Notes: a model not told the origin generated them from the sequence alone. Positions 3,784 to 22,643 are shown, numbered from the stretch's first letter. The stretch is DNA of 23,751 bases from a virus (IMGVR_UViG_3300025853_000660:1-23751), one strand, 5' to 3'. Numbers and translations are program-made.

Positions 3784-4650
3784 TTACCTCGGTTGCATTA
3801 AATTATAAGTAGCATAAGCACCTAAACCAGCTCCTGCTGCTTGTCCTAAAGGATTTGATCCGGGAGCCGTGGTTGCTGTAAGAGTACTTTGTGTTGTAGG
3901 TAAATTAGTCATAATACCTTTTAAGAATTCAACTCTTTGATAAGGTTCATAAGCTCTTTGAAGTTCCGTTGCTCTTTGAGCATCTAGAGCTTGTTGTCCA
4001 ATACCTCTTTGTAATGCACCTGCTTGCATCTGTGCATTTATATCTGCAAGACTCATTGCTTGTTGTTGTGCACCAAGTTGACCTAACCCTTGACCTGCTG
4101 CTAATTGTGTTTGCGTTGCAAGTTGTTGTTGATTTTGAGCTGCACCTAATGCAGTTTGGAAACCTTGAGCTTGTGCTTGACCCATAGCTTCTAAAGTTCT
4201 TTTTTGTAACTCTGCTTGTTGTACACCTTGTCTTCCTCCACCAAAAGCACCAGCATCAATTGCTGAAGCAGATAATTGGTTTTGTGCTATCTGGCCTTGT
4301 CTTCCAATTTCATTTGTTACATATTGTTGATAAGGATTTAAAAATTGTGAAATGTTTGGTCCTGCAGCAGCAGTCTGTTGTGCTCCAGTAAAAGCACCAA
4401 TACCTCCCGTTACTGTTCCAGCACCAACACCTGTCTGTCCTGCTTGAGTAATTCCTGCTTGTTCTAAAGCGGAAATAGGAGCTACTTGAACACCCGGTAA
4501 GGATACAGGTGTCTTAGCTAAACCTGCAGCTTCATCATATAAAGCTAATTTTCTAGCCTCAACTCCTGGTGCTTCTCTTGCAATACTTGTTTGAGTTCCA
4601 GAAGAGGAGCCACCTCCGCCTCCGCCTCCGCCTCCGCCAAATATACTCAT
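3784..4650 (-). CDS. Ala/Gln-rich putative ejection protein with poly-Gly start
   Basis: This 288-residue protein begins MSIF followed by ten glycines (5-14) and SSS. It continues as a helical Ala/Gln/Gly-rich protein. The block FLNPYQQYVTNEIGRQGQI then QNQLSASAIDAGAFGGGRQG (107-144) is a hallmark I recall from DNA transfer or injection proteins of marine podoviruses, as in P22 gp7 or T7 gp14 position. Long Gln/Ala repeats (148-215) predict an extended helix. YEPYQRVEFLKGIM (234-247) is another conserved block before the hydrophobic C-terminal AAGAGLGAYATYNLM. The poly-Gly tract is encoded by a GGCGGA hexamer repeat. The start overlaps the GNAT-like gene's stop; the GAGG of its own last codons serves the next gene. 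Confidence 0.72.
   Translation of the reverse strand: MSIFGGGGGGGGGGSSSGTQTSIAREAPGVEARKLALYDEAAGLAKTPVSLPGVQVAPISALEQAGITQAGQTGVGAGTVTGGIGAFTGAQQTAAAGPNISQFLNPYQQYVTNEIGRQGQIAQNQLSASAIDAGAFGGGRQGVQQAELQKRTLEAMGQAQAQGFQTALGAAQNQQQLATQTQLAAGQGLGQLGAQQQAMSLADINAQMQAGALQRGIGQQALDAQRATELQRAYEPYQRVEFLKGIMTNLPTTQSTLTATTAPGSNPLGQAAGAGLGAYATYNLMQPR
4615..4638 (-). repeat. Tandem hexamer GGCGGA, four units, inside a gene
   Basis: Four exact copies of GGCGGA encode eight of the ten glycines near the N terminus of the ejection-like protein. The tract is far richer in G and C than its surroundings. Gain or loss of units would keep the frame and change the glycine run by two residues each time. Confidence 0.9.
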
Positions 4651-5108
4651 TAGTTTAACTCCTTTTCAAATTCAATGTGTCTTGATTTATAACCATACTT
4701 AGGCATAACTTTTTTATAACCTGGTCTCATATAAGCTTTAATTTTTTTACAACCATTTACCTTAGCAAACTGTTCTAAAGTATTAATTAATTTTTCTTCC
4801 CATAAATTCATTTTTTTACCTGTACATATTAAACCTTGTAATTCTTTAAAGTTTGGGTTTTCAAATATTCTCGTTGTGACAACACCATAAACTTTATTTG
4901 TTTCTCCTTCTTCTGAACCAAAAATTAAAAACAATTGATTATCTCCCGATATTAAAAGTTGTTTTATATCTTCTGGCTCTGCGTATTTTCCACTGTATAC
5001 CAAAGCCTCTGCAATCATAAAATGAACTAATGACCAAATATCTTCTACCTTTGCAGGTATAATTGGTAATACTTCAATATCGTTTTTAATTATCTTTTCT
5101 GCTTGCAT
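4650..5108 (-). CDS. GNAT-like internal virion protein
   Basis: This 152-residue protein has the outline of an N-acetyltransferase (GNAT) fold: a starting strand (IEVLPIIPAK), an N-terminal helix (VEDIWSLVHFMIAEALV, 21-37), central strands (QLFLIFGSEEG, KVYGVVTTRIFEN), a helix (WEEKLINTLEQFAKVNGC, 103-120) and the C-terminal block IKAYMRPGYKKVMPKYGYK (123-141). The RPGY/W...GYK end is common to GNAT-like proteins found beside ejection genes in podoviruses. The acetyl-CoA loop (R/QxxGxG/A) is not visible, so catalysis is doubtful. It overlaps the upstream gene by 23 bases and the next gene by TAATG. It is probably a structural or assembly protein derived from an enzyme. Confidence 0.65.
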   Translation of the reverse strand: MQAEKIIKNDIEVLPIIPAKVEDIWSLVHFMIAEALVYSGKYAEPEDIKQLLISGDNQLFLIFGSEEGETNKVYGVVTTRIFENPNFKELQGLICTGKKMNLWEEKLINTLEQFAKVNGCKKIKAYMRPGYKKVMPKYGYKSRHIEFEKELN

Positions 5109-5958
5109 CGACTAAATCATAAATCCGTTTTAATTTTTTTTGTTGATCATAAAAGAAATCAGCACCAGCTTTTCTCATGCTTTTATAACTTTTAGGATCC
5201 CCACCCGATAAAATACCTGCACCTAATACTGCATCAGCTCTAGATACAAATTCACCATCAGCTAATTGTGCAAGCATTGTATCTTCATCCTTGTCACCAT
5301 TACCTGCTCCATCTTCTACATAACCTTCAGCTCTAACATAATTATTATAATCTTTCTCATCATGATCTGTTTTTGATGGTAAATAGTTTACCCCACCTTG
5401 ATTAAAATATTTTACAGCCGTAGCTAATCCACCTTCATTTGCATAAAACATATTAGATCCATAAGTTTCTTGTCTAGTAGGTCTTGGATTTTTTGTTGGT
5501 TCAAAACCACCTTCTAATTTTTCACTTTGTTCTTTGTAAGCTTTATCATAATCTTCTTTTCTATAGCCTTCCATTTGACCATCACCTTCATCTTCCCCAC
5601 TTAACAACGGAAGTAATGTAGATGCAGCTATAAATTTAGTTGGTGTATCCATTCCTAAAATGCCTTTACCTGCTTGCTCGGCAACAGCCGGAACAACTTC
5701 TCCTGCTGCATTTGTAGTAGCTGCTTTAGCTTCAACAGCTTTTTGTCCTATCAAACCTTTGATACCACTAAATGGATTTCCAGTTCCAACTTTACCTAAA
5801 AAACCAGATGGTCCTCCAAGCATTCCTGATTGAGTGGCTTGACCTAATGCAAAAGAACCACCACCGATTAAGGCGGCATCTCTTAATGCTCGTTTTGTTG
5901 ATTTACCTCTAAGTTTTTGTACACCAAATGTGGCTAATGCTAATGTAAATGGATCCAT
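5086..5958 (-). CDS. Virion-associated protein with LADGEFV motif
   Basis: This 290-residue protein has a Gly/Ala-rich hydrophobic first third (residues 1-120, such as AALIGGGSFALGQATQSG and FIAASTLLPLLSG), then a charged middle, and a conserved end. The segment DTMLAQLADGEFVSRADAVLGAG (226-248) matches a motif found in many marine phage internal proteins and in tape-measure proteins. It is followed by DPKSYKSMRKAGADFFYD. Two Gly-Gly motifs, YANEGGLAT and YFNQGGVNY, lie at 172-191. It starts the putative ejection-protein operon with AGGAAAA before the ATG. A role inside the head or in genome ejection is inferred from position and from the amphipathic make-up. Confidence 0.65.
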   Translation of the reverse strand: MDPFTLALATFGVQKLRGKSTKRALRDAALIGGGSFALGQATQSGMLGGPSGFLGKVGTGNPFSGIKGLIGQKAVEAKAATTNAAGEVVPAVAEQAGKGILGMDTPTKFIAASTLLPLLSGEDEGDGQMEGYRKEDYDKAYKEQSEKLEGGFEPTKNPRPTRQETYGSNMFYANEGGLATAVKYFNQGGVNYLPSKTDHDEKDYNNYVRAEGYVEDGAGNGDKDEDTMLAQLADGEFVSRADAVLGAGILSGGDPKSYKSMRKAGADFFYDQQKKLKRIYDLVDASRKDN

Positions 5959-5993: not shown

Positions 5994-6857
5994 TTACTTG
6001 TTAGGTTTCAACTCATCAGCAAAACGACCTATGTATTGATGCTCTCCAACATGTACAATTGGATCAGTTATATAAGCATAACATTTACCACCTATTTCTT
6101 TCCAACGTTGGCAAAAAGCAAAGTCTTCTCCTAAATATGTCTTTTCTATTGGATCGTGAAGTGTGTCAAAAAAATTCCATAAGTTTGGTCTATCTACATA
6201 TTTACCATTTATGACTGTCTTTTGTACAATTTTTTTATCAGGATAAGCTTTTATCATCTTATCAAAAACAGACCTTTGAATCATCATACATCCTGTAGGG
6301 CTATGAGTTACTTCAATAACTCCATCATCTAGTGTGATATCATTATTATCCCCAACTTTCATTGGATAAGTATTTAAAGATGCTTTTAAATGATTTGCAG
6401 TTTTTATAGTTCCTTCTTCTATTTTACTTAATGCTTTATCCCACATCATAGTTTTTAAAGGATAAGGTATTGATAGTACTTCTTTATCTTTTTTTAACAT
6501 TGCTAATATTGACTCTGGTTTGAAATAAATATCTGAATCAACAAACAACATGTGTGTGCACTTTGATTCTAAAAATCCTGCTACACATAGGTTTCTTCCT
6601 TGAGTAACAAGAGATGACTTAAGTAAATGAAAATAAATTAAAATATTATTTTTAATACAAGTTTGTTGTAGCTCTAATAAAGCTTGAGTGTAATGTATTG
6701 AACAATCACTGTGCACAGGTGTAGCCACAAACAATGATACTTTACTTTTTGGTTTGTTAGATTTCCACAAAGGTGTAATTGATTTCTCATGTGACTCTCC
6801 TGGAATTTTTATTTCTTTAAGAGTTTGATAAGTATCTTTATTTACTGTTTCTTTCAA
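5994..6857 (-). CDS. GT-A fold glycosyltransferase with DxD motif
   Basis: This 287-residue protein has a GT-A glycosyltransferase core. VSLFVATPVHSDCSIHYTQAL (40-60) is the first nucleotide-binding strand and helix, QGRNLCVAGFL (86-96) follows, and HMLFVDSDIYF (102-112) contains the metal-binding DxD (D107, D109). GCMMIQRSVFDKM (189-201) and LGEDFAFCQRWKEIGG (242-257) hold the acceptor-site residues (E244, D245), and H269 in IVHVGEHQY may complete the metal site. Length and order fit phage GT-A enzymes related to family 2. It overlaps the GT-B gene by 20 bases. Two enzymes of different fold in tandem suggest two successive sugar additions. Confidence 0.83.
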   Translation of the reverse strand: MKETVNKDTYQTLKEIKIPGESHEKSITPLWKSNKPKSKVSLFVATPVHSDCSIHYTQALLELQQTCIKNNILIYFHLLKSSLVTQGRNLCVAGFLESKCTHMLFVDSDIYFKPESILAMLKKDKEVLSIPYPLKTMMWDKALSKIEEGTIKTANHLKASLNTYPMKVGDNNDITLDDGVIEVTHSPTGCMMIQRSVFDKMIKAYPDKKIVQKTVINGKYVDRPNLWNFFDTLHDPIEKTYLGEDFAFCQRWKEIGGKCYAYITDPIVHVGEHQYIGRFADELKPNK

Positions 6858-7773
6858 TTAAGGCTCCTTTCAAAAAACCAGACCACTCAGCCCCCTTTTT
6901 TTCCCAATTATAAAATCTTTTATAAAATTTTTGTTGTTCTTCTAAATGTTCTTGAATGTAATCTTCATGTAAATAATTTGCTGCTACCTTTACTGCATTT
7001 GCAGTATCAACAGCCATTCTTTCGTAATCTCTACTGTAATTTATATAAACAGGCCATTCAGCACAAGTTTCATACAAAGCTCCAAAGTTATTAGTAACTA
7101 CATGTACACCCGAAGCTAAAGCTTCAAGTGCAGACACACAAGACGTTTCTTCAAATATACTTGGATATATAAACATATCATAGTTAGGCATCATTTCTAA
7201 AATATACTCGTTAGGTTTGTAACCAATATAATTTACATTTGGTAGTTTTTTAGCTTGTTCATAAAGTGGCTCAAATTGTTTATCGTGTACGCTATTAAAC
7301 TCTGATCCATAAACTTGAGATGAAGAATATATATCTAAAGTAATATTAGGATCTTCAATCTCTTGCATTGCTCGAAGCACTAAGTTAAGACCTCTCCAAG
7401 GTGTGCAATGATGTATTAATTTAATTGGTTCACCTTTTTTATATATCTTTCTTATTGGAAACTTTTCAATACCATTTTTAATTACAACACATTTTTCAGT
7501 AGGTATATCAAAAAAATATCTAAATTTTTCATAGTTCCAATGACTATTAAATACATACCAATCATATTCTTTGTGTCTTTCTTTATTATTAAAAAAAGGT
7601 TGAAGATTACCTTGATCCCAAGAATTTTTTTGCCAAAGTATATTTAGTTTGTTTGGGTCTATTGGAACTTTACCTGGTATGGATGTACAAATTTGAACTT
7701 GATCAAGCAGATCTTTTGAAACATGCTTATTAAGCATTTCCATTTGAATTTCTGTTGCGCCTCTAGGTTCCAT
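6838..7773 (-). CDS. GT4-like (GT-B) glycosyltransferase
   Basis: This 311-residue protein is a GT-B fold glycosyltransferase of family 4 type, which moves a sugar from a nucleotide-sugar to an acceptor. The C-terminal donor domain is clear: KLIHHCTPWRGLNLVLRAM (118-136), ITLDIYSSSQVYG, PNVNYIGYKPNEYILEMM (178-195) and FIYPSIFEETSCVSALEALASG (201-222). The last contains the E-x7-E pattern (E209 and E217) that holds the donor. The N-terminal domain is shorter than usual for the family (about 110 residues), beginning at a GGTE-like motif (RGATEIQ, 4-10), so the first Rossmann strand is missing. It overlaps the oxygenase upstream (TAATG) and the next glycosyltransferase by 20 bases. Acceptor and sugar are unknown. 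Confidence 0.85.
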   Translation of the reverse strand: MEPRGATEIQMEMLNKHVSKDLLDQVQICTSIPGKVPIDPNKLNILWQKNSWDQGNLQPFFNNKERHKEYDWYVFNSHWNYEKFRYFFDIPTEKCVVIKNGIEKFPIRKIYKKGEPIKLIHHCTPWRGLNLVLRAMQEIEDPNITLDIYSSSQVYGSEFNSVHDKQFEPLYEQAKKLPNVNYIGYKPNEYILEMMPNYDMFIYPSIFEETSCVSALEALASGVHVVTNNFGALYETCAEWPVYINYSRDYERMAVDTANAVKVAANYLHEDYIQEHLEEQQKFYKRFYNWEKKGAEWSGFLKGALIERNSK

Positions 7774-8285
7774 TATTTTAATGTTATAAAACTGTTAAGT
7801 GTTAATCTTCCGTTGTCTATATCTGTCCCATGGTGTCCATAACCCATATGAAAATATTCACTAGAATACATTATTAATCTATTTTTTACAAATTTAAAAT
7901 CGTTAACTATATTTTTTTCTTTATCATATAAATATGTTCCAGAGTTAAGATTAGTTTTAGATAAATATATTAGTGATGAAAAATTAAAAAAATCTTGATG
8001 TATAAAATCTTTTTCATTATCTTCTTCTCGTCTTAAATGTATACAATGTGTAATAAAACTTACATCTTCTGGTTTGATTAATTTATTATAAAACATTAAA
8101 AAATTAATATATTCATACAAAAAAATATTTGTTTCAATTAATGGAAAGCTTCTTAATCCAGGGAATGTTTCAGTAGTGCCTCGTAACGAGTTGAGATTTT
8201 CTTGATCATATAATTTTATTTTTTTTAATTCAGGTAAAATGTAATCTAACCTAGGAATAAAATCTTCAACTTGTCTAGCTATCAT
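7773..8285 (-). CDS. DUF6445-like 2OG-Fe(II) oxygenase family protein
   Basis: This 170-residue protein resembles DUF6445-type proteins: the FPGLRS motif (41-46) is followed by an oxygenase-like triad. IHQDFFN gives H96 and D98, EYFHMGYGHHG gives H146 (or H151/H152), and R160 in NGRLTLNSF is the expected 2-oxoglutarate-binding arginine. The strand SSLIYLSKTNLNSGTYLY (103-120) corresponds to the central beta hairpin of the fold. The substrate is unknown. It is coupled upstream by ATGA and downstream by TAATG to the GT-B glycosyltransferase, so hydroxylation and glycosylation of the same target is a reasonable hypothesis. Confidence 0.75.
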   Translation of the reverse strand: MIARQVEDFIPRLDYILPELKKIKLYDQENLNSLRGTTETFPGLRSFPLIETNIFLYEYINFLMFYNKLIKPEDVSFITHCIHLRREEDNEKDFIHQDFFNFSSLIYLSKTNLNSGTYLYDKEKNIVNDFKFVKNRLIMYSSEYFHMGYGHHGTDIDNGRLTLNSFITLK

Positions 8286-8476
8286 TCCTTAGTAAGGCTC
8301 TCCATAGATACTTTCGTAACTTTAATTTCCAAGTCCTGTCTAAAATCATCATTAGTAGTGTCAGTATTGGGATCAGCAACATCAGCATCAAAATCAGCTT
8401 TACTAGCATAAACTTTACCTGTTCTCTTATGTTTAATTATTTCTTTAGCTTCAGCTGGTATCTTCTTAAGTGTCAT
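8282..8476 (-). CDS. 64-residue acidic conserved protein
   Basis: This 64-residue protein has the pattern HKRTGKVYASKADFDADVADPNTDT (16-40) followed by RQDLEIKVTKV. I recall the same pattern (H-x-RTGKxY.S...DVxDPxTxT) in many marine phage small proteins without function. It is acidic in the middle and probably a small beta protein. AAGGAG lies 8 bases before the ATG, inside the end of the methyltransferase gene, so expression may be strong. Its last bases (AAGGAATGA) combine a Shine-Dalgarno sequence and a stop/start overlap for the next oxygenase-like gene. Confidence 0.7.
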   Translation of the reverse strand: MTLKKIPAEAKEIIKHKRTGKVYASKADFDADVADPNTDTTNDDFRQDLEIKVTKVSMESLTKE

Positions 8477-8477
8477 A

Positions 8478-9299
8478 TTATTTCTCCTTTTTTAAAAATG
8501 AATCATAATTCCAAGAATTATTTTTTCCCCAGAAGTCACAATATTTACTATCTCTACTAAATGAAGTTAAATCGCAAGATTTAAATATAGCATACTTATC
8601 TGGGTCTATGGTATCCTCTACAACTAAACGATCACCAGTAGTCATCATTGATGATACCTTATTAATTATACCCTTCATATTAGCATGACAGTCTTCAATA
8701 ACTAACATGGGTGATTCGTATTCTTCAAACTCATATGAATCTATATTATTAACATCTAATTTTATAAATTCAACGTTCGGTATATCTTTGATTTCTTGGT
8801 TGTCTACAGTGATAATTCTTGTATCTAAGCCTAATGTTTTTGTCATATCAGAAAACCAATAAGCGGAACCACCTTCACCAGAACCAAATTCTAGTATTGT
8901 TTTTGGTTTAAGCTCTTGCAGCATTTGTTGGTAAATAGTTAGACTCATAGGATCTTTTAATAATTTAAGTCCTTTCCATTTAAAGTTATTAAATTTAGAA
9001 AATTGTATTACATTAGTATAATGCCTATTGTTTTCTAAAATTCTTTCAATCACATTTAATTCTGCTTTGTATTCGTGAGGACCATCAGGCTCTTCTATTG
9101 TATTACCTTCAGTAAATAAATTAGCATATTCACTACCTACCATAGTTTTATAAATGTTCATCATCTGATCTACCATAATATTAATAAAATGTTTTTTATT
9201 AGCATTTTTGATAGTCATCACTCCATCATCTTTAATTTTTTGTATTTCGCTTTCGTTGAAAAATAAATTAAGACTTGTTTTTGTAGTTTCTATTTTCAT
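8478..9299 (-). CDS. CmcI-like SAM-dependent methyltransferase
   Basis: This 273-residue protein has a class I methyltransferase fold of the CmcI / rhamnosyl O-methyltransferase type. WKGLKLLKDPMSLTIYQQML (108-127) is the family lead-in; ILEFGSGEGGSAYWF (135-149) is the SAM-binding glycine loop with E137; TVDNQ (164-168) is motif II with D166. LVIEDCHA (199-206) and LVVEDT (225-230) supply later acidic motifs. In this family these residues often hold metal and the acceptor hydroxyl. Family members methylate sugars or small molecules; with glycosyltransferases two and three genes downstream, O-methylation of a glycan is the natural reading. The first 90 residues have no match I can name. AGGAT precedes the ATG by 6 bases. 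Confidence 0.8.
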   Translation of the reverse strand: MKIETTKTSLNLFFNESEIQKIKDDGVMTIKNANKKHFINIMVDQMMNIYKTMVGSEYANLFTEGNTIEEPDGPHEYKAELNVIERILENNRHYTNVIQFSKFNNFKWKGLKLLKDPMSLTIYQQMLQELKPKTILEFGSGEGGSAYWFSDMTKTLGLDTRIITVDNQEIKDIPNVEFIKLDVNNIDSYEFEEYESPMLVIEDCHANMKGIINKVSSMMTTGDRLVVEDTIDPDKYAIFKSCDLTSFSRDSKYCDFWGKNNSWNYDSFLKKEK

Positions 9300-9301
9300 A
9301 A

Positions 9302-9886
9302 TTAATCCTGTTTGTATATAGCTAAACTTAATGAAAGTCTAGGTTCTTTTATAGAAGTCACACAATGTGGAGTCATTCTATTTATAAATTGAACATTTTG
9401 ATCTTTAATAATTGTTTCCTTTTTATCTATATTCCAAACAGATTCTCCATATATATTTTTAATAAATAAACAATAATCATCTGTATGTTCTGGAAATGAA
9501 ACATTTTGATTATTTAAACCTTTTGAAAAATAAAAATTACCACATATTCTTACACCAAATGTTTCTAAAGCAACCTGTTCTATTTTTTTAAGTTCATCAT
9601 TAATATCAAGCACATCACTTATAATAAATGAAAACCCTTTGTCATAAAAATTTTTAAATTTGTCAAAATCTAAAAAACCATATATATCAAATAACTCTTT
9701 TCTTAATTTTGTTCCTAAATTATCTAATAAACAAATACTTTCATGACCATGGTGAAACTGATAAGGAAATCTTTTAGATATTTTTAAGATATCAAATATA
9801 TCCCATTCTTTTAGATTTACTTGATGAGTAACTAAAAACTCATGAAATTTTTGAAAGGAAGGTTGATGAAGGTTTCTCACGGACAA
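9302..9886 (-). CDS. 2OG-Fe(II) oxygenase / cupin-like protein
   Basis: This 194-residue protein has a plausible iron triad in its C-terminal half: FPEHTDDY gives H134 and D136, MTPHCV gives H174, and R183 in EPRLSLSLAIY is the likely 2-oxoglutarate or carboxylate-binding arginine. The strands in between (CLFIKNIYGESVWNID, DQNVQFINR) fit a cupin/JmjC-like barrel. The N-terminal half is charged and helical, with a His-rich stretch (QFHHGHES at 43-50) that may hold another metal. It starts the group of modification genes and ends three bases before the methyltransferase start. Compared with the other oxygenases here the family match is weaker; a non-enzymatic cupin is possible. Confidence 0.65.
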   Translation of the reverse strand: MSVRNLHQPSFQKFHEFLVTHQVNLKEWDIFDILKISKRFPYQFHHGHESICLLDNLGTKLRKELFDIYGFLDFDKFKNFYDKGFSFIISDVLDINDELKKIEQVALETFGVRICGNFYFSKGLNNQNVSFPEHTDDYCLFIKNIYGESVWNIDKKETIIKDQNVQFINRMTPHCVTSIKEPRLSLSLAIYKQD

Positions 9887-10017
9887 CCCTGGCCTTTGTA
9901 TCTATTTAAATTTTTTTGACGCTTCTCGTGTTTGTTGAGATTTTTCTTGTGTTGCCGAGGACCTCTTTTCTTAGGTTTATCTCTGGGTATGAAGTGTGTA
10001 AATTTTTGTTTAGCCAT
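9877..10017 (-). CDS. 46-residue Lys/Arg-rich protein
   Basis: The minus-strand frame from the ATG at 10017 encodes 46 residues, MAKQKFTHFIPRDKPKKRGP through NRYKGQGCP, then TGA. About 40 percent of the residues are Lys, Arg or His. The start lies inside the end of the previous gene (8-base overlap) behind the sequence CAGGAGA, a good Shine-Dalgarno; the end overlaps the next gene by 10 bases. These overlaps and the RBS support a real gene. I recall near-identical small basic proteins in marine phages. Binding to DNA or RNA, or neutralising packaged DNA, is a guess from charge. Confidence 0.75.
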   Translation of the reverse strand: MAKQKFTHFIPRDKPKKRGPRQHKKNLNKHEKRQKNLNRYKGQGCP

Positions 10018-10360
10018 TCTCCTGAGATCTGTCTATTTGAGCATAGCTAATAACACCTTGAATTTTACTACTGCCTGTAGCTGCTTGCACAGTTATTGCA
10101 TCACCTGCTTCAAGATTTAAACCTTGTGGGGCAGCATTAACTTGAGATTTAGCTGCAACATCATCTCTGAAAAATTCATATTCAGCACTTGAGTCAGAAG
10201 AATCTACAAAGTTCATGTTAACTAAGATAGCTGATGAAGCATCATTGTTAGCACAATAAACACTTTTTACTATAACTGTTGCATTAGTAGGACATGTAAA
10301 CGCTGTTGTCTTACTTGTATCGGTCTGTTTAAAACCTTGATTTTTATATTGTATAGTCAT
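10010..10360 (-). CDS. Small beta-rich virion protein
   Basis: This 116-residue protein is a compact all-beta protein of a type common in marine phage structural modules (pattern TTAFTCPTNATVIVKSVYCAN at 18-38, SAILVNMNFVDSS, then LNLEAGDAITVQAATGSSKIQGVISY at 81-106). The block LxLEAGDxI is typical of small jelly-roll or Ig-like virion proteins that decorate heads or fibres. Two cysteines (C23, C36) lie in neighbouring strands. There is no enzyme motif. It is coupled upstream by an ATGA overlap and overlaps the next small gene by 8 bases. Head decoration or minor tail protein are both possible. Confidence 0.7.
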   Translation of the reverse strand: MTIQYKNQGFKQTDTSKTTAFTCPTNATVIVKSVYCANNDASSAILVNMNFVDSSDSSAEYEFFRDDVAAKSQVNAAPQGLNLEAGDAITVQAATGSSKIQGVISYAQIDRSQENG

Positions 10361-10521
10361 GATAAAAAATAGTTAAATGCATCTTGTTCATTTTTTAATT
10401 CTTGTTGATAAGATGTGTTTAATTTATCTTTGAGGGTTTGTAAAGACTGAGCTACTTGTCTTTGATTTTCTTCAGTATAAGTAGGTGTAGGTTCTGGTAT
10501 TAATAGATCAACTCTAGCCAT
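10357..10521 (-). CDS. 54-residue helical protein after the gp10-like gene
   Basis: Reading the minus strand from the ATG at 10521 gives 54 residues starting MARVDLLIPEPTPTYTEEN and ending NEQDAFNYFLS, closed by TGA. After a Pro/Thr-rich start the rest is a single charged amphipathic helix (QVAQSLQTLKDKLNTSYQQE). The gene fills a 160-base gap exactly: its start overlaps the stop of the 716-residue gene (TAATG) and its stop overlaps the next start (ATGA). This double coupling is strong evidence that it is translated. It might be a small tail or assembly component; I recognise no domain. Confidence 0.75.
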   Translation of the reverse strand: MARVDLLIPEPTPTYTEENQRQVAQSLQTLKDKLNTSYQQELKNEQDAFNYFLS

Positions 10522-12671
10522 TATCCCCTCATACCATCTGGTTGTACATCTACTCTAAATGTACCATATCTCCAATTCTGATCGGTGGAGGTATTTGCTA
10601 CCTTTACACTTGCAAATCTAGATCTTGCTCTTGTATCAACTTTATCAGTTGATGAATTTATTGTAAAAGGACCTAAAGGAGAGGACTGTGCATTTACTGC
10701 AGGATAGGATCTTAAATTTAAAGTAACTTGTGCATCACCAGTTAATATTTTGAAATCTGGTATAAATCTTCTTATGCTCATAAAAAATTGTCCATCTCCA
10801 CCGGTAGACAAATCAAAATCTCCTGATGTAATAAATGCAGGTATTGCTGTTTTGTTACCAAGAGCATCAACTTCATTGTTACCAACTTCATGTGCATAAT
10901 ATGTAGACGCACCATTTATGTTTGTTGCTCCTTGTATTGTTGGAAACGTAGGCACATCTGCGGTAATAAATTCAGTTGCATAAGGATTATCGTATAATGT
11001 TGCATCAGCCCAAGAAGTCCTAGCTAATGATCCTGTAGTCCAAGTGTTTTCAGTATAGTTGTAAGTTACAGCTCTATCTACTTGTTCTTGTCCATTCCTT
11101 GCATAGAACCAAGTTATCTCTTCATACAAATGATTTAATCCAGCATATACTTGCTCACCTGCTGTATAATTAATACCTAAGTTATCTCCTTTACTTGTAA
11201 ATACAAAATCTTCTACTAAGCAAGGTAACGATTTAACAGTACCATCATAAACAAAAAATCCTCCTGCTTGACCCATCCAAAAAACTTTACCATTTACATA
11301 CTTGATAGCATGTTGACCAATCAAACCACAATTAGAACCAACCTGTCTTATAGAAAATGTAAATGGTGGTCCAACAAATTGCATTATATAAGCAGAAGTA
11401 TCAGTAAGTATTAGAATATAATCTTTAGCTTTTGCAGCTCCTACAATTTTTACCCCAGAGTCTACTCTAAAAGTACCTGCAGTATTCGTTGATGTCGGTG
11501 TATAATCTGATAAATTTTCTTGATCTGAAAATCTTATAAACATTTTATCTTGTGTGTTCTCAGTTCCAATAATTGTTTCAGTTCCAAGAATAATAAGGTG
11601 TCTATCTCTTTCTGATACTATTGACATTACAGAAGTAGTTGGAGCTCCAGCAATAGCTGTTGCTCTTGTTGTTAATGCAGGAGGGTTCGAACTAATTGCT
11701 TCCCATTTAAAAGTTTTTCCATTTTTAATTGTTGCAACAAGAGTGCTTCCAAAATGATCTAATGACCATGAAGCAGGATCTAGTAATACTGTCGTAGATG
11801 TAGAGGCTTGTCCCCAAGCTGTAAAATATTCAACGGACGCACCATCTGAGTGTGCTGTTCTTGTACCTCCAGAACCTCTCGTAATACCTTGTAATATATT
11901 ACCTGTTATATTTGTGTAAGAAATAAACTCAGCTCCAACTTTTATACTGCCACTTGTTGGAAAGCCGAGAGCCGAGGTCACTGTTATTTCAGTTGCAGAT
12001 CCATTGTTACCTTGAGTGTCATCAGCTAGTGCCCCATTTAAAGTTGTGACAAGTCCTGATTGACCACCCCAAGAAGATGTTCCCCAACCATAACCAGCAG
12101 TTTGGTTCAATGGTCCTACTTCAACATAAGGATTAAGCACAGCTGACCCACTAGCAGCTACTGATGTGCCTGCTGCAGAAGCCATTGTTATAGTGAATGT
12201 ATCTACAGAAGCCGTAACTACTTGAAATGTATTTGTTTCAAAATCTGAAGCTATATATCCTGCTCCTGAGGGAGGTGTTACAGATGTAAATGTAAATAAA
12301 TCTCCATCAGTCAATCCATGACCAATTTTATTTACAGTAACAGTTGTGCTTGTATTCACTGTCGTAAAAGTAGCACCAGTTATTGGAGTATCTAAAGGCG
12401 TAATATCGTAGTAAGCTCCTTCAAAATAAACTACTAAAACTTTGTTTGAGCCTAAAGCTATATATTTTCTACCATCAAGATCAGCCCAAATAAGTTGTTC
12501 TCTAATAGCACCTACTACTTTTTTATTTATAATTTCTTCCCAACCACCTATTTTTTCAGGTAGTCCGTATCTAAATCTAACAAAATCACCATCGACCCAC
12601 TGACCTTCAGCTCCGGTAGCAGTGACCTGTTTGTTAAATCCTGGTTGTATCTGTATGTTAGCTAATGGCAT
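10521..12671 (-). CDS. P22 gp10-like tail / packaged-DNA stabilisation protein
   Basis: This 716-residue protein is a P22 gp10-like (Phage_stabilise type) tail protein, which caps the adaptor and keeps packaged DNA in the head; it is the functional counterpart of T7 nozzle protein gp12. Recognised blocks are the N terminus LANIQIQPGFNKQ (3-15) with GDFVRFRYGLPEKIGGWEE, the middle SLDHFGSTLVATIKNGKTFK, SERDRHLIILGTE and RFSDQENLSDYTP, then NGKVFWMGQAGGFFVYDG and EEITWFYARNGQEQ. These repeated beta blades fit a propeller. The conserved N terminus supports the ATG at 12671 as the true start although it has no Shine-Dalgarno sequence. Ser/Thr-rich insertions at about 95-250 (TSTTVTVNK, TSSWGG) probably form an extra surface domain. 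The stop overlaps the next gene (TAATG). Confidence 0.85.
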   Translation of the reverse strand: MPLANIQIQPGFNKQVTATGAEGQWVDGDFVRFRYGLPEKIGGWEEIINKKVVGAIREQLIWADLDGRKYIALGSNKVLVVYFEGAYYDITPLDTPITGATFTTVNTSTTVTVNKIGHGLTDGDLFTFTSVTPPSGAGYIASDFETNTFQVVTASVDTFTITMASAAGTSVAASGSAVLNPYVEVGPLNQTAGYGWGTSSWGGQSGLVTTLNGALADDTQGNNGSATEITVTSALGFPTSGSIKVGAEFISYTNITGNILQGITRGSGGTRTAHSDGASVEYFTAWGQASTSTTVLLDPASWSLDHFGSTLVATIKNGKTFKWEAISSNPPALTTRATAIAGAPTTSVMSIVSERDRHLIILGTETIIGTENTQDKMFIRFSDQENLSDYTPTSTNTAGTFRVDSGVKIVGAAKAKDYILILTDTSAYIMQFVGPPFTFSIRQVGSNCGLIGQHAIKYVNGKVFWMGQAGGFFVYDGTVKSLPCLVEDFVFTSKGDNLGINYTAGEQVYAGLNHLYEEITWFYARNGQEQVDRAVTYNYTENTWTTGSLARTSWADATLYDNPYATEFITADVPTFPTIQGATNINGASTYYAHEVGNNEVDALGNKTAIPAFITSGDFDLSTGGDGQFFMSIRRFIPDFKILTGDAQVTLNLRSYPAVNAQSSPLGPFTINSSTDKVDTRARSRFASVKVANTSTDQNWRYGTFRVDVQPDGMRG

Positions 12672-12676
12672 GCCAG

Positions 12677-12705
12677 ATTATAGCATATTAGCTTATCTTC
12701 TTAAA
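12677..12705 (-). promoter_or_regulatory. Promoter TTTAAG-N17-TATAAT with extended -10 (TGC)
   Basis: Minus strand: TTTAAG at 12705-12700, 17 bases ending TGC, then TATAAT at 12682-12677 and five bases (CTGGC) to the ATG at 12671. This 17-base element (TGCTATAATCTGGCATG) differs at one base from the one before the gene at 21276. No Shine-Dalgarno sequence is seen. A leaderless start of the large tail gene is suggested. Confidence 0.6.
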
Positions 12706-13241
12706 CCTATTCTAAGTCGTTTATCGTACTTCCAATCTTTATGTGGCCCTTCTTGATTAACATAATGCATAAATACTTGGCTGTATTGATCTCCTTCATA
12801 AGGTCCTTCTCTATAATGCTCCCAATCAATACCTTTATAAACTATAGCTTCTCCAGGTTTTAAATCAAAACACTTGCCATCAGCACACATTTTCCATGGC
12901 ACATTATCAGATCCTAAATGTAATGTAACTGAGTATTCACAAGAAGGTCTGTCTCTATGTTTTTTTAATTCTGATCCATTTACATACATTCTGTAAAATG
13001 AATATGTAGGCCATAATTTAATACCACAAATTTCTTCCATACGTTTCCATTTTTGTACTAACAAAATCTCTGTGGCTGGGTCTGCATAATGTGATGCATC
13101 AAAATTAGTTACAACGTCATCAGCCATAGACAACCCACCTGCATTATTTCTTAAATTTAATTTTGCGTAACTATGAAAGAAAAAAGCCTCATCAGGAGTT
13201 ATAAAATCTTTTATAAGTATTGGTGTTTTTAATTTATCCAT
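12693..13241 (-). CDS. 2OG-Fe(II) oxygenase-like protein with unusual C-terminal half
   Basis: This 182-residue protein carries an oxygenase iron triad: KKHRDRP gives H95 and D97, and WEHYREG gives H142. The strands around it (SVTLHLGSDNVPWKM, KPGEAIVYKG) fit the double-stranded beta-helix fold. The arginine that normally sits about 10-14 residues after the distal histidine is missing: Gln152 and Gln155 stand there (GDQYSQVFMHY). Either R144 serves instead or the cosubstrate differs. From memory, related marine phage proteins share this QVFMHYV ending, so it is probably a subfamily feature rather than decay. It overlaps the preceding oxygenase by 13 bases. The end is basic (KYDKRLRIGLRR). Confidence 0.78.
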   Translation of the reverse strand: MDKLKTPILIKDFITPDEAFFFHSYAKLNLRNNAGGLSMADDVVTNFDASHYADPATEILLVQKWKRMEEICGIKLWPTYSFYRMYVNGSELKKHRDRPSCEYSVTLHLGSDNVPWKMCADGKCFDLKPGEAIVYKGIDWEHYREGPYEGDQYSQVFMHYVNQEGPHKDWKYDKRLRIGLRR

Positions 13242-13834
13242 GATACTAAACTATATCTTACTCCCTTTGTAATTGGTTTTACTCCATGAGGATACATAAA
13301 ACTACTAGGCCAAATAACACATCTGTTTGGTTGAAGTTCAATCTTACCAATACCAGGAAAGTGTAATTCACCACCCTCATAATCATTATTTAAAAAATAT
13401 ATAAAACTTAATCTTCTTGGATACGTTAGACTTGCATCAACATGTGGTTTGTAATTACCACCAACATTATATCTTAAGATCTCAAGTTGAGACACGTTAC
13501 AATCGTGAAATTCTATACCAGTATCTTGTACATATTTTCTTACGATTTGCAAAACTACTTCATGGAAAAAATATGTGTAGTGAACATTAGTCATGGAGTC
13601 ATGATGAGTACATAAAGGTAAACAATCAACAACTCTAAAAGACTTATCAAGTTTACCCCCATCACCAGTATCTCCTATCTTTCCTGCTTCCCAATAACTA
13701 GGTTGAACTATATTAAGCCATCTTAATAACTTTTGTAATTTTTGTATTGGTATAACATTGTCATACACTTTAACAAATTTAGATAAGTCTGTTTGTTTTT
13801 GATCTAAAATTATTTTGTTATTTTTTTGTTCCAT
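13229..13834 (-). CDS. Prolyl 4-hydroxylase-like 2OG-Fe(II) oxygenase
   Basis: This 201-residue protein has all the parts of a prolyl 4-hydroxylase-type 2OG-Fe(II) oxygenase. YKPHVDA gives the iron ligands H131 and D133, RRLSFIYFLNNDYEGGELHF (140-159) is the characteristic strand-turn-strand, YPHGV gives the distal ligand H183, and R193 in GVRYSLVSW holds 2-oxoglutarate. Family members hydroxylate prolines or other residues in proteins. Its start lies within the 3' end of the DUF6065-like gene (25-base overlap), and its 3' end overlaps the next oxygenase by 13 bases, forming a coupled trio directly downstream of the tail fibre genes. The Gly/Pro-rich fibre is a conceivable substrate, but this is inference. 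Confidence 0.9.
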   Translation of the reverse strand: MEQKNNKIILDQKQTDLSKFVKVYDNVIPIQKLQKLLRWLNIVQPSYWEAGKIGDTGDGGKLDKSFRVVDCLPLCTHHDSMTNVHYTYFFHEVVLQIVRKYVQDTGIEFHDCNVSQLEILRYNVGGNYKPHVDASLTYPRRLSFIYFLNNDYEGGELHFPGIGKIELQPNRCVIWPSSFMYPHGVKPITKGVRYSLVSWIN

Positions 13835-14620: not shown

Positions 14621-15086
14621 CTGGAATTTCCATATAACTTACAGCAGATCCAAATCTTGCCTCCATATATGAATAAAAAGAATCCATTGGAAAAGATGGG
14701 TTATCACTTAACGCACCACCATCTGCTTCAGCTTTTACAGTTTCTATGTTTGTAAGATGTGCTTGATATCTAGTGTTGTGTGGTTGATCAGCTTCATCAT
14801 TATGAAATTTAAGATGATCTTCTATTTTTGACTTACATCTCTCAAGTTCACTTTTAAAAATTTCAAGATTTGCAATTGCATCAGGTCTATCAGTATATGT
14901 TACTGAATTATGTCTTGATTCAAAATCAATTACTTTTTGACCTCTAACTAAAGCGTTAAAATCTTCATCTGAAATTTCAGTAGCATCTGCTCCCGTTTCA
15001 TGTTTTAAAGCATAAGTTTTTGCCGCATCGTCTCTACAAAATACAATAGGACTTATTCCTTCATGATTCCAAACAATAGCTGCCAT
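14616..15086 (-). CDS. Conserved protein after the fibre (possible fibre chaperone)
   Basis: This 156-residue protein begins MAAIVWNHEGISPIVFCRDD, a block I associate with marine phage proteins of unknown function found next to tail fibres. The middle (residues 60-120) is predicted helical and charged (NLEIFKSELERCKSKIEDHLK). The end is FPMDSFYSYMEARFGSAVSYM. It starts inside the stop of the fibre gene (TAATG at 15086), so it is translated with the fibre. That position and the helical make-up are what a fibre assembly chaperone would have, but no Tfa or gp57A/gp38 motif is visible. A minor tail protein is the alternative. Confidence 0.55.
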   Translation of the reverse strand: MAAIVWNHEGISPIVFCRDDAAKTYALKHETGADATEISDEDFNALVRGQKVIDFESRHNSVTYTDRPDAIANLEIFKSELERCKSKIEDHLKFHNDEADQPHNTRYQAHLTNIETVKAEADGGALSDNPSFPMDSFYSYMEARFGSAVSYMEIPV

Positions 15087-16426
15087 TAGAATCCACCTCC
15101 ATTTTTCTCCCAGAAGAACATATAACCTGGTCCACCATTTTGTGCACTTTGGTTAGGGCTTCCACCAGGACCACCAATAGTTTTTGCTAAAAACATAAAA
15201 CCAGAGTTAGCAGCAGGAAATGTATTTCCTAATGCATCTGTATTAACACCTTCAGCTTTAATAACTGGGAACACAGTTGTTCCATCATATAAATTTGTTT
15301 GATTAAATGAGTTAGCATTTGGATCTAAACCAGATAAGCCATTGATAGTTGGTTGGGATGGATAAGGAGAGAAAGGTGATCCTCTTCCGCCTGCATCACC
15401 ACCGTTAGGTCCACCATTTCCACCGCCACCTATTGTAACGTTTGCAAATTGAGTTGAACCTCCACCGCCACCGATGTTAACTGTTTGACCAGATAATCCT
15501 CCAGGTACTGATACTGCAAAGAAACCAATTCCACCATTACCGCCTGGGCCTCCTGGTCTTACTGGATCATTTCTAGTACCACCGTTTCCTGCTCCCCCAC
15601 CTGCATAACCAATTCCAGCTGTTACGCCTGGAGTTAAAGGTGAGTAAGTTGTTGATACAGGTCCTGGACTTGCGATAGCAAGTGTGTAATCAAAAGAGTC
15701 TCCACCTGCAGCTCCACCTGAAGCTGCTGCAGTTAATCTTCCTTGAGCATCAACAGTAAATCCTGCATTTGTATATGCACCTGCAGTTACAGCAGTGTTT
15801 GATAATTGATCTGGGCCAATAGCATCATCTGCAACTTTAGCAGTGGTTACTGCATCATCCGCAATTTTAGCCGTGGTTACTGCACTAGCATTTATCGCAG
15901 CCGTTACTACTGCATTGTCTGAAAGATTAGCAGCTAATACTGCATCATCCGCAATTTTTGCAGCCGTGATTGCATCGTTATCAATTTGTGCAGTTCCAAT
16001 AGTACCGCCTAAAGTATTTAAAGCGATCTCATTTAAATTTGTTCCATCTGTGTAAGCAGCAATTATTTTTGCTTCGCCTACGGTAAAACCAGTTCCACTT
16101 GCAGTTTTAATTGTAAGGTTTGTTACTCCAGTTACTGCAGAGCAATCAAAAATATAAAATTTTTCTATTGTGTCTGGGACAGTAACTACTGAAGCACCTG
16201 TAAGAGTTCCTGTAAATTTGATAACCATGTTACGAGCATTTGATAATGCTCCGTCTGACATAGCTAATGCTACAGTTCCACCATTGTTAAGTGCTATTGC
16301 TTCATAACCTGCAATTGCTTGTTGAACTAATTTTAAATTGTCGTTTGTTTTATCACCCCATGTACCAGCGTTTTCACCGGTTACCATTAATTCTAGTTTG
16401 AGGTCTGCTGAATAACTTGATGCCAT
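15086..16426 (-). CDS. Tail fibre / receptor-binding protein with Gly-rich C-terminal region
   Basis: This 446-residue protein has four parts. Residues 1-40 (SSYSADLKLELMVTGENAG, then TWGDKTNDNLKLVQQAI) match the N-terminal anchor of many marine phage tail fibres. Residues 41-146 are a beta domain. Residues 147-216 are seven tandem decapeptides of the type AKIADDAVTT, expected to form a trimeric shaft, followed by the fibre motif VDAQGRLT (225-232). Residues 274-349 and 418-446 are dominated by Gly runs (GGGG, GGPGGNGG, GGPNGGDAGG), recalling the polyglycine-II sandwich of the Salmonella phage S16 adhesin gp38. The last part would be the receptor-contacting tip. AGGAG lies 9 bases before the ATG, in a 37-base leader that also holds a TATAAT. 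The stop overlaps the next gene (TAATG). Confidence 0.82.
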   Translation of the reverse strand: MASSYSADLKLELMVTGENAGTWGDKTNDNLKLVQQAIAGYEAIALNNGGTVALAMSDGALSNARNMVIKFTGTLTGASVVTVPDTIEKFYIFDCSAVTGVTNLTIKTASGTGFTVGEAKIIAAYTDGTNLNEIALNTLGGTIGTAQIDNDAITAAKIADDAVLAANLSDNAVVTAAINASAVTTAKIADDAVTTAKVADDAIGPDQLSNTAVTAGAYTNAGFTVDAQGRLTAAASGGAAGGDSFDYTLAIASPGPVSTTYSPLTPGVTAGIGYAGGGAGNGGTRNDPVRPGGPGGNGGIGFFAVSVPGGLSGQTVNIGGGGGSTQFANVTIGGGGNGGPNGGDAGGRGSPFSPYPSQPTINGLSGLDPNANSFNQTNLYDGTTVFPVIKAEGVNTDALGNTFPAANSGFMFLAKTIGGPGGSPNQSAQNGGPGYMFFWEKNGGGF

Positions 16427-21447: not shown

Positions 21448-21456
21448 ATTATACCA
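21448..21456 (-). promoter_or_regulatory. Extended -10 box TGGTATAAT, 5 nt before an ATG
   Basis: On the minus strand TGGTATAAT ends five bases (TAATT) before the ATG at 21442. It overlaps the end of the upstream oxygenase gene. A poor -35 candidate, GTAACA, lies 18 bases upstream. No Shine-Dalgarno sequence is seen before this ATG. The spacing equals that of the boxes at 21282 and 12677, which suggests transcription starting at or next to the A of ATG. Confidence 0.45.
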
Positions 21457-22087
21457 CAGTTTCATATCGAATGTTACCTGATATTGATATCCTTTCACCT
21501 TCTGATTTATAAAATGGATTTACTTGATGTAATAGTTTAGATGGAAACATCATTAAAACCCCTTCATGTGATTTATCTACTGCTATGGGAAATGTTCTTT
21601 GGTTTCCAGCTATATCAAAATAACAAAAATTAAAGCTAGCTGTAATAGAATCTCCTTTGTCATCAAGATCTTCTTTTCTTTCTTCTTTTACATCATAAGG
21701 TATTTTTACCCATAAAACCCAAGATAGAACTCCTTCGTGATGATGTAAAGGCACATACTCATTTTTAGTTTGGTAATTTACCCACATATCTTTACCGTTA
21801 AAAGCAAGATCATTATTTGTGCAATAAATATTTCTTAATCGAATATCATGATTTTTTTGATAAGCATCAGCTATACCTAAAACTTCTTCGGCTAACATAT
21901 TTTCGCATTCTCTTAGCCTATAATGAATGGGAGTTCCTATTCCAGATAAACCTGTTTTAAATTTTTGCATTTTATGATCTTTTAAGTTTAAACATTCGTT
22001 ATAAACTTTTTCAAACTTATCTTTATGAAGCTTTGTTATTGCTATTGGTAAAGTTGGTAAAAATTGAAACTCTAGTTTATTTTCCAT
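21449..22087 (-). CDS. 2OG-Fe(II) oxygenase of the HxH type (2OG-FeII_Oxy_5-like)
   Basis: This 212-residue protein resembles the putative 2OG-Fe(II) oxygenase family often seen in cyanophages and pelagiphages. The first iron motif is HHHEG with H115 and H117, so the usual HxD is HxH here, as in that family. The distal ligand is H187 (KLLHQVNPF), and R199 in GERISIS is the 2-oxoglutarate-binding arginine. The segment EGVLSWVLW matches the beta strand after the first motif. It overlaps the preceding oxygenase by 11 bases, so the two are probably made together and may act on one target. Its last codons (ACT GTG GTA TAA) also form an extended -10 promoter box for the next gene. The substrate is unknown. 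Confidence 0.85.
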   Translation of the reverse strand: MENKLEFQFLPTLPIAITKLHKDKFEKVYNECLNLKDHKMQKFKTGLSGIGTPIHYRLRECENMLAEEVLGIADAYQKNHDIRLRNIYCTNNDLAFNGKDMWVNYQTKNEYVPLHHHEGVLSWVLWVKIPYDVKEERKEDLDDKGDSITASFNFCYFDIAGNQRTFPIAVDKSHEGVLMMFPSKLLHQVNPFYKSEGERISISGNIRYETVV

Positions 22088-22643
22088 TTGGGTCTTTATA
22101 TTCTTTTATATGAACAATCATATTAAGATTGAATCTATGAAAAAATTCTTTTGGTGCAAATCCTCTATGTATTAAATGAGATGGAAACACAATTGCTTGA
22201 CCCTCTTTACTGTAAATTTTTTCTCCTGTTTCAAACTCAGTTCCTCCGTCATTCGTGTGTAAATTGTACAAAACTGAAACACAGTGGCCATAGGTGTCTT
22301 CATCACAATGCCAATCTGGTCCTGCATTAGGGGTATAAAAATTCCAATACATTCTTCTTGGAGCTGCCATTTGATGTTTAGATTGTTGTGCTGCTAAATG
22401 AAAAACCCATTTTCCAAATGTATTTAAATAAGGGTCACCATTTTTACCATGCATATCTTCTAAACTTGTGTGATACATTCCAAAATCTTTAGCACGATTA
22501 CCTGCTATTACTTGGTTAAAAGATTTTTGAAACATAGGAGGTTTATCATTAGCAAACCTCCAATCTATTTTTCCAAGATATTCAATAACTTCTTTATTTA
22601 AAACACTTGGAATTGGTAAATCTAATAATTCTATTTTTGACAT
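22077..22643 (-). CDS. Fe(II)/2-oxoglutarate-dependent oxygenase
   Basis: This 188-residue protein has the non-haem iron triad of the double-stranded beta-helix oxygenases: WHCDED gives H112 and D114, and HRG gives H159. R170 (HRFNLN), 11 residues later, is placed to bind 2-oxoglutarate. Such enzymes couple oxidation of 2-oxoglutarate to hydroxylation of a protein, lipid, nucleobase or small molecule; the substrate here cannot be read from sequence. The strand pattern between the iron ligands (SVLYNLHTNDGGTEF, then GQAIVFPSHLIH) is typical of prolyl-4-hydroxylase-like phage proteins. The start follows the endolysin stop by 4 bases with no strong Shine-Dalgarno sequence, so translation is probably coupled. 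It overlaps the next gene, another oxygenase, by 11 bases. Confidence 0.88.
   Translation of the reverse strand: MSKIELLDLPIPSVLNKEVIEYLGKIDWRFANDKPPMFQKSFNQVIAGNRAKDFGMYHTSLEDMHGKNGDPYLNTFGKWVFHLAAQQSKHQMAAPRRMYWNFYTPNAGPDWHCDEDTYGHCVSVLYNLHTNDGGTEFETGEKIYSKEGQAIVFPSHLIHRGFAPKEFFHRFNLNMIVHIKEYKDPNGK

Follow-up and report, generated by a model that had tools for sequence, protein, structure and literature searches.

A 23.7-kb virus fragment (IMGVR_UViG_3300025853_000660:1-23751; 23,751 nt), here called the window, carries in its late (virion) operon a group of six genes (positions 5,994–9,886) that we read, at roughly even odds, as a hub for the hydroxylation, glycosylation and capping of a virion protein, probably one in the tail. 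Sequence comparisons show that a glycosyltransferase (GT) of the GT-B type and another of the GT-A fold form a resident pair that is inherited together, while a JmjC-type oxygenase, a CmcI-type methyltransferase and a DUF6445-like 2-oxoglutarate (2OG) oxygenase are exchangeable cargo occupying two slots. The window belongs to an HTVC023P-type pelagipodovirus, given that its tail/stabilisation protein shares 60% identity with the counterpart in Pelagibacter phage HTVC023P and 55% with the one in HTVC027P; HTVC023P-type pelagiphages are the most abundant known virus group infecting the ocean bacterium SAR11.

The six open reading frames lie on the same strand, are all intact and are separated by 1–2 nt or overlap by 1–20 nt; the catalytic residues of the GTs and the DUF6445-like oxygenase are also intact. 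Ratios of non-synonymous to synonymous substitution (dN/dS), calculated against relatives of 81–100% protein identity, among which near-identical pairs give more variable values, were mostly 0.07–0.14 for the cargo genes (0.13 for the methyltransferase) and GT-B, and 0.10 and 0.17 for GT-A. The six genes are real and are under purifying selection. Family scans, invariant residues and models uphold the cupin/oxygenase-like, CmcI-type, DUF6445-like, GT-B and GT-A gene calls of a preliminary description of this DNA, and the tail/stabilisation and ejection-type proteins on either side (Table 1) confirm the location that it gave between tail and ejection genes. Its view of the six genes as one coupled system fails, because relatives carry the GT pair without cargo or with other cargo.

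Comparisons were made on loci sampled from IMG/VR, 80 retrieved around the tail protein and 80 around GT-B; because this sampling favours close relatives and takes in many related contigs, the locus counts are not independent. The preliminary description had proposed looking for the same set and order in related phages: the order of the pair was kept, with GT-B followed by GT-A in 105/105 loci having sequence downstream of GT-B, but the oxygenases occurred singly or in other combinations. The pair occupies a fixed place, after a late protein of ~112 aa and a small protein, and the order in HTVC023P and HTVC027P is tail protein, 54-aa gene, ~111-aa gene, small gene, GT-B, GT-A and ejection-region genes, with one additional gene after the tail protein in HTVC027P. 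Among the tail-protein-anchored loci, 32 had the GTs, 16 lacked them and 32 stopped short of the place; those lacking them were all divergent, with a tail protein ≤50% identical to the nearest query. Pairwise identities of GT-B and GT-A were correlated at 0.83. Against the remaining late genes examined the correlations were 0.16–0.38, except for a small 64-aa protein that tracks the GTs better (0.54–0.57).

GT-B matches PF00534 at 51.7 bits (cut-off 26.4), and E209 and E217 of its EX7E-like motif are invariant; PDB sequence searches with GT-B and with the DUF6445-like oxygenase returned nothing informative. In GT-A, the DxD (D107, D109) and ED (E244, D245) motifs are invariant in 42 relatives. 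This protein scores below the gathering threshold of Anp1/GT62 (PF03452; 15.6 bits, cut-off 28.8), and a profile of the 42 sequences found no PDB chain at E ≤ 1, LH3 and COLGALT1 included. The likeness is therefore one of fold only, which is no proof of function: the GT-A model (pLDDT 84.5) gave Z scores of 16.5 to STIV A197, 16.4 to LH3, 14.8 to Mimivirus R699, 14.5 to COLGALT1 and 14.4 to Mnn9.

By comparison with the pair, the contents of the slots vary. All three slots were empty in 67 of the 101 loci with GTs; the remainder held differing sets. Where relatives of the window have cargo, it includes other oxygenases, a NodU-type carbamoyltransferase (PF16861, 2e-54) and an extra GT. Examples are a carbamoyltransferase with a DUF6445-like oxygenase (L165), a JmjC-type gene only (L110, L153) and two other oxygenases (L095/L096). 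Modifying-enzyme families accounted for 85 of the 88 inserts between the ~112-aa gene and GT-A, structural genes for none, and the other three are unclassified, yet retain both iron histidines. The two slots just upstream held 9 enzymes and 45 structural-like genes, a class assigned mostly by sequence and context, with few matches to a named PHROG; Fisher tests on the difference between hub and upstream slots gave 7e-28 when genes were counted and 1.8e-4 when families were. An HxD...H...R regular expression was dropped as a classifier because it matches 28% of inserts after shuffling and 23% of the backbone proteins; inserts were assigned by family scans and alignment instead. Of the oxygenase-like inserts, 33 in all, 2OG-FeII_Oxy_5 is matched by 20 and 2OG-FeII_Oxy_3 by 16, and the sole invariant columns of their alignment are the two iron-binding histidines. 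GC contents of 25.7% for inserts, 30.5% for GTs and 34.7% for virion genes, with inserts lower in 40/40 loci, fit a recent arrival of cargo and an older residence of the GTs.

The JmjC-type oxygenase of the window shows a weak JmjC_2 match (E = 0.004). Its model (pLDDT 88) shares the JmjC core fold of NO66 (Z 16.6, root-mean-square deviation 3.0 over 172 residues), MINA53 (15.8) and YcfD (13.4), again a likeness that does not prove function. NO66, MINA53 and YcfD are protein side-chain hydroxylases of 360–460 aa; the window protein, at 194 aa aligned to residues 199–426 of about 458 in NO66, lacks the full-length ribosomal-oxygenase architecture, and its distant relatives have HxH, not HxD. 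The true start of its gene is probably a GTG two codons into the open reading frame of Table 1, at the position where relatives have an ATG start. The DUF6445-like oxygenase scores 22.4 bits against PF20043, just under the gathering cut-off of 24, and a slot relative in L168 reaches 45.6 bits; its HxD...H...R residues (H96, D98, H146, R160) are invariant in seven relatives.

The methyltransferase clears the 23.2-bit cut-off of PF04989 (RMNT_CmcI), and its profile finds the CmcI structure 2br3 (E = 1e-29). It fails the rhamnosyl O-methyltransferase equivalog NF045824 (51.5 bits, cut-off 400) and is thus a relative, not an orthologue, of that enzyme. No relative was found in 84,980 prokaryote genomes and no CmcI-type methyltransferase like it in 50,697 phage records. 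Plasmids gave no match. The three cargo genes occur as a set only in the window clade (about ten contigs, 81–100% identity), and within the HTVC023P-type group the methyltransferase is always accompanied by the full set; its relatives outside the group have no GT pair in view. An oxygenase directly beside a CmcI-type methyltransferase recurs in the window clade, L011 (overlapping), L183 (convergent) and L184/L185 (overlapping), although this adjacency is only moderate evidence, since some of the regions concerned are rich in oxygenases.

From this arrangement, a working model can be sketched. GT-B and GT-A presumably assemble a short glycan in two steps, while oxygenases and capping enzymes come and go in two or three fixed slots by the pair. 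The oxygenases may hydroxylate side chains of a co-produced phage protein, some of the resulting hydroxyls serving as GT attachment points, as in the glycosylation of collagen hydroxylysine. The oxygenase–methyltransferase pair could methoxylate the protein or the glycan, much as CmcJ/CmcI treat cephalosporins, where relatives would use a carbamoyl cap instead of a methyl one. The likeliest acceptor would be a tail protein exposed on the virion, for example a fibre or the neighbouring 116-aa protein, and cargo swapping might alter the appearance that the particle presents to receptors, defences or competitors. The idea in the preliminary description that an acceptor is hydroxylated, glycosylated and methylated thus survives as a working model, although not as one six-gene system. 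We advance only tentatively the fuller proposal of a line of virion-protein modification in which resident two-step glycosylation and exchangeable hydroxylases and caps (methyl, carbamoyl and, in a T4-like relative, sulfate) give a rapidly changing tail coat, with collagen-like hydroxylation before glycosylation and CmcJ/CmcI-like methoxylation, a step for which we found no description in phages.

A protein acceptor is supported by the best model matches of the JmjC-type oxygenase, which are protein side-chain hydroxylases, and by the presence of LH3, Mimivirus R699 and COLGALT1 among those of GT-A. The best evidence for a virion acceptor comes from the unrelated T4-like marine virus AG-345-L05, in which the same GT pair and oxygenases are interleaved with large repeat (fibre-like) proteins: a repeat protein, a DUF6445 oxygenase, a sulfotransferase, a 968-aa repeat protein, GT-A, GT-B, a DUF6445-type oxygenase, a 916-aa protein, part of which matches a virion structural PHROG, and a prolyl-hydroxylase-like oxygenase. 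In cyanophage ACG-2014f, the GT-A adjoins tail-collar and surface-repeat genes. L184 and L185, from another marine phage group, contain a run of adjacent oxygenase-like genes with one CmcI-type methyltransferase; in L184 this run has a Gly-rich fibre-like gene on one side and a fibre gene on the other.

As regards details of these relatives, the AG-345-L05 region is L198:1610-8975 and its sulfotransferase matches PF13469 (E = 3e-14); the runs span L184:2353-7076, with seven oxygenase-like genes, and L185:3605-7153. Among phage records, 15 of 18 GT-B matches share the record with a GT-A relative, even tens of kilobases apart (e.g. phiM12), a co-occurrence that may come partly from shared descent among T4-like phages. 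None of these GT-B matches was an Agrobacterium phage, and Agrobacterium phage Atu_ph04, with its undigestible DNA and GT1 gene, was not used.

Several observations weigh against modification of a virion protein by a hub of this kind. Phages that lack GTs commonly carry oxygenases too, and methyltransferase relatives in L181 and L182 have no adjoining oxygenase. GT identity does not follow that of the candidate 116-aa acceptor (correlation 0.17–0.18). The LH3 match of GT-A covers residues 293–519, outside the N-terminal part, and is equalled by that to STIV A197. In the T4-like phages phiM12, Cr30, DLP6 and OspM_OC, the GT-A relative has replication genes around it, with GT-B at another location; in Caulobacter phage Cr30, GT-B belongs to a heptose-sugar cassette (L192:3938-7677), as for a surface glycan.

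Remodelling of the host surface is the main rival, which we nevertheless consider rather unlikely. The GT pair would place sugars on SAR11 lipopolysaccharide or capsule late in infection, blocking superinfection or freeing progeny from debris, and the cargo would methylate, carbamoylate or oxidise those sugars. Pelagimyophage GTs have been interpreted in this way (PMC7029224), cyanophages carry the same kind of carbamoyltransferase, the models closest to the methyltransferase are those of rhamnosyl O-methyltransferase/CmcI and the Cr30 GT-B sits with a nucleotide-sugar epimerase, a heptose kinase and a phosphoheptose isomerase, genes that also hint at the donor sugar. However, the fold of the JmjC-type oxygenase is that of protein hydroxylases, the AG-345-L05 pair is interleaved with virion-type genes and, on inspection without membrane prediction, none of the genes beside the pair could be recognised as dedicated to sugar export or membrane anchoring.

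It is improbable, in our estimation, that the cargo is a loose collection of morons sharing only a tolerated insertion point and acting on separate targets (the JmjC-type oxygenase on a ribosomal protein, for example). Cargo is indeed mixed, gained and lost, the JmjC-type enzyme resembles ribosomal oxygenases and its relative in HTVC008M has a phage S21 gene some 5 kb away; but the hub slots accept modifying enzymes only, next to slots with structural genes, the cargo genes are under purifying selection and the pairing of an oxygenase with an adjoining CmcI-type methyltransferase recurs outside the window clade, in the loci named above. Less likely than host-surface change, and in our view quite improbable, is hypermodification of DNA, whereby the GTs would glycosylate a hydroxylated base and the cargo enzymes complete it. 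GT-A relatives do adjoin sliding-clamp genes in several T4-like phages, but the thymidylate synthase family (PF00303) is absent from HTVC023P, HTVC027P, psg01 and six contigs, with a positive control, and this reading is weakened by the absence of such enzymes from the two cultured phages. A Tet_JBP scan gave no match, although the control genomes were silent too. Moreover, the window genes are located in the virion operon, and restriction-modification is encoded in just one of >100 SAR11 genomes (PMC7029224).

Phage-encoded modification of virion or surface is already a known kind of system. HTVC023P (gp76–gp78) and HTVC027P (gp79–gp81) have the same GT-B, GT-A and small late protein in the same place, but, unlike the window, no JmjC-type oxygenase, methyltransferase or DUF6445-like oxygenase there. 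The preliminary description knew of no phage system with the exact set. GTs and eight kinds of 2OG oxygenase have been reported for the HTVC023P-type group (PMC9599517), although we found no description of the slot organisation in the accessible part of that source. Mycobacteriophages Che8 and Rita, likened to the window by description only, also encode GTs, and the sugar is reported to end up on a virion protein, as proposed here; in their case this was the major capsid protein, and the accessible text mentions no hydroxylase or methyltransferase cargo (PMC11256854). CmcI acts with the hydroxylase CmcJ, hydroxylation preceding methylation (PMC6097109). The window methyltransferase is a CmcI homologue encoded directly after an oxygenase gene, but that oxygenase is of JmjC type and is likened to CmcJ by gene position, and the substrate is surely different. 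With collagen lysine hydroxylation and glycosylation (LH3, COLGALT1, Mimivirus R699), the window shares oxygenases beside GTs and a GT-A fold that is among the closest of all solved structures; it differs in its small, separate genes, and 12–14% identity in structural alignment, and visual inspection of the window showed no collagen-like acceptor. Carbamoyltransferases, for their part, are annotated in cyanophages.

Table 1: Features of the hub and its surroundings in the window.
Feature	Position	Strand	Evidence
GT-A-fold glycosyltransferase, second gene of resident pair	5994..6857	-	PHROG 1574 E=7e-37
GT4-type GT-B glycosyltransferase, first gene of resident pair	6838..7773	-	PF00534 E=1e-13, PHROG 2170 E=7e-29
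2OG-Fe(II) oxygenase, DUF6445-like, cargo in slot between small protein and GT-B	7773..8285	-	PF20043 E=1e-4, PF13640 E=0.005
Small 64-aa late protein, backbone, not cargo	8282..8476	-	84% identical in HTVC023P
CmcI/rhamnosyl O-methyltransferase-type S-adenosylmethionine methyltransferase, cargo	8478..9299	-	PF04989 E=2e-15, 57.6 bits
JmjC-type (cupin fold) oxygenase, cargo in slot between 112-aa protein and small protein	9302..9886	-	PHROG 29157 E=2e-39
46-aa gene, homologue of HTVC023P gp75	9877..10017	-	ORF reading; relatives carry gene too
116-aa late protein, backbone, presumed structural, candidate acceptor	10010..10360	-	homologues at same place in HTVC023P, HTVC027P and GT-less psg01
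54-aa gene, homologue of HTVC023P gp73, backbone	10357..10521	-
Tail/DNA-stabilisation-type virion protein, upstream anchor	10521..12671	-	PHROG 3287 virion structural protein E=2e-87
Fast-evolving neighbour downstream of GT-A, downstream anchor	5086..5958	-	27-68% identity to isolates
Ejection-type protein, Gly/Ser-rich N-terminus	3784..4650	-	PHROG 4287 DNA ejection protein E=2e-6

The 64-aa protein, once counted as an acidic member of the set, is not notably acidic: its isoelectric point is 5.8, with 13 acidic and 12 basic residues. It is excluded from the modification set because it persists in phages without GTs, with a distant homologue in GT-less 023Pt_psg01. Its homologue in HTVC023P stands directly before GT-B. 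The earlier inventory also overlooked the 46-aa gene, which is present in relatives.

Among the neighbours, the gene after GT-A evolves fastest (dN/dS 0.30–0.47). When the window is set against L004, several neighbours are 98–99% identical, yet the 116-aa protein (L004:5222-5557) is 43% and GT-B 86% identical, a contrast that we read as allele swapping within a near-identical context. The window's late region encodes more 2OG oxygenases at 13,229–13,834 and 21,449–22,087 (PF13640 E = 6e-18; PF13759 E = 5e-15). The former, prolyl-hydroxylase-like, is close to a gene for a tail-fibre-like protein (15,086–16,426) with a Gly/Pro-rich C-terminal part, which is a possible hydroxylation target. Other 2OG-oxygenase-like proteins (12,693–13,241, 22,077–22,643 and the slot inserts) match PHROGs named ferrochelatase (2954), DNA endonuclease V (274; matched by 21/33 slot oxygenases) and minor coat protein (1644; 11/33). 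These names are probably wrong for such proteins, and the published ferrochelatase–oxygenase partnership in the HTVC023P-type group may rest partly on one of them.

Viral use of prolyl hydroxylase has been termed cryptic (PMC9301287). If the hub does modify a virion protein, this would provide a function for many of the 2OG oxygenases that are so common in marine phages, and the two cultured phages that carry the GT pair, HTVC023P and HTVC027P, make this a concrete, testable system.

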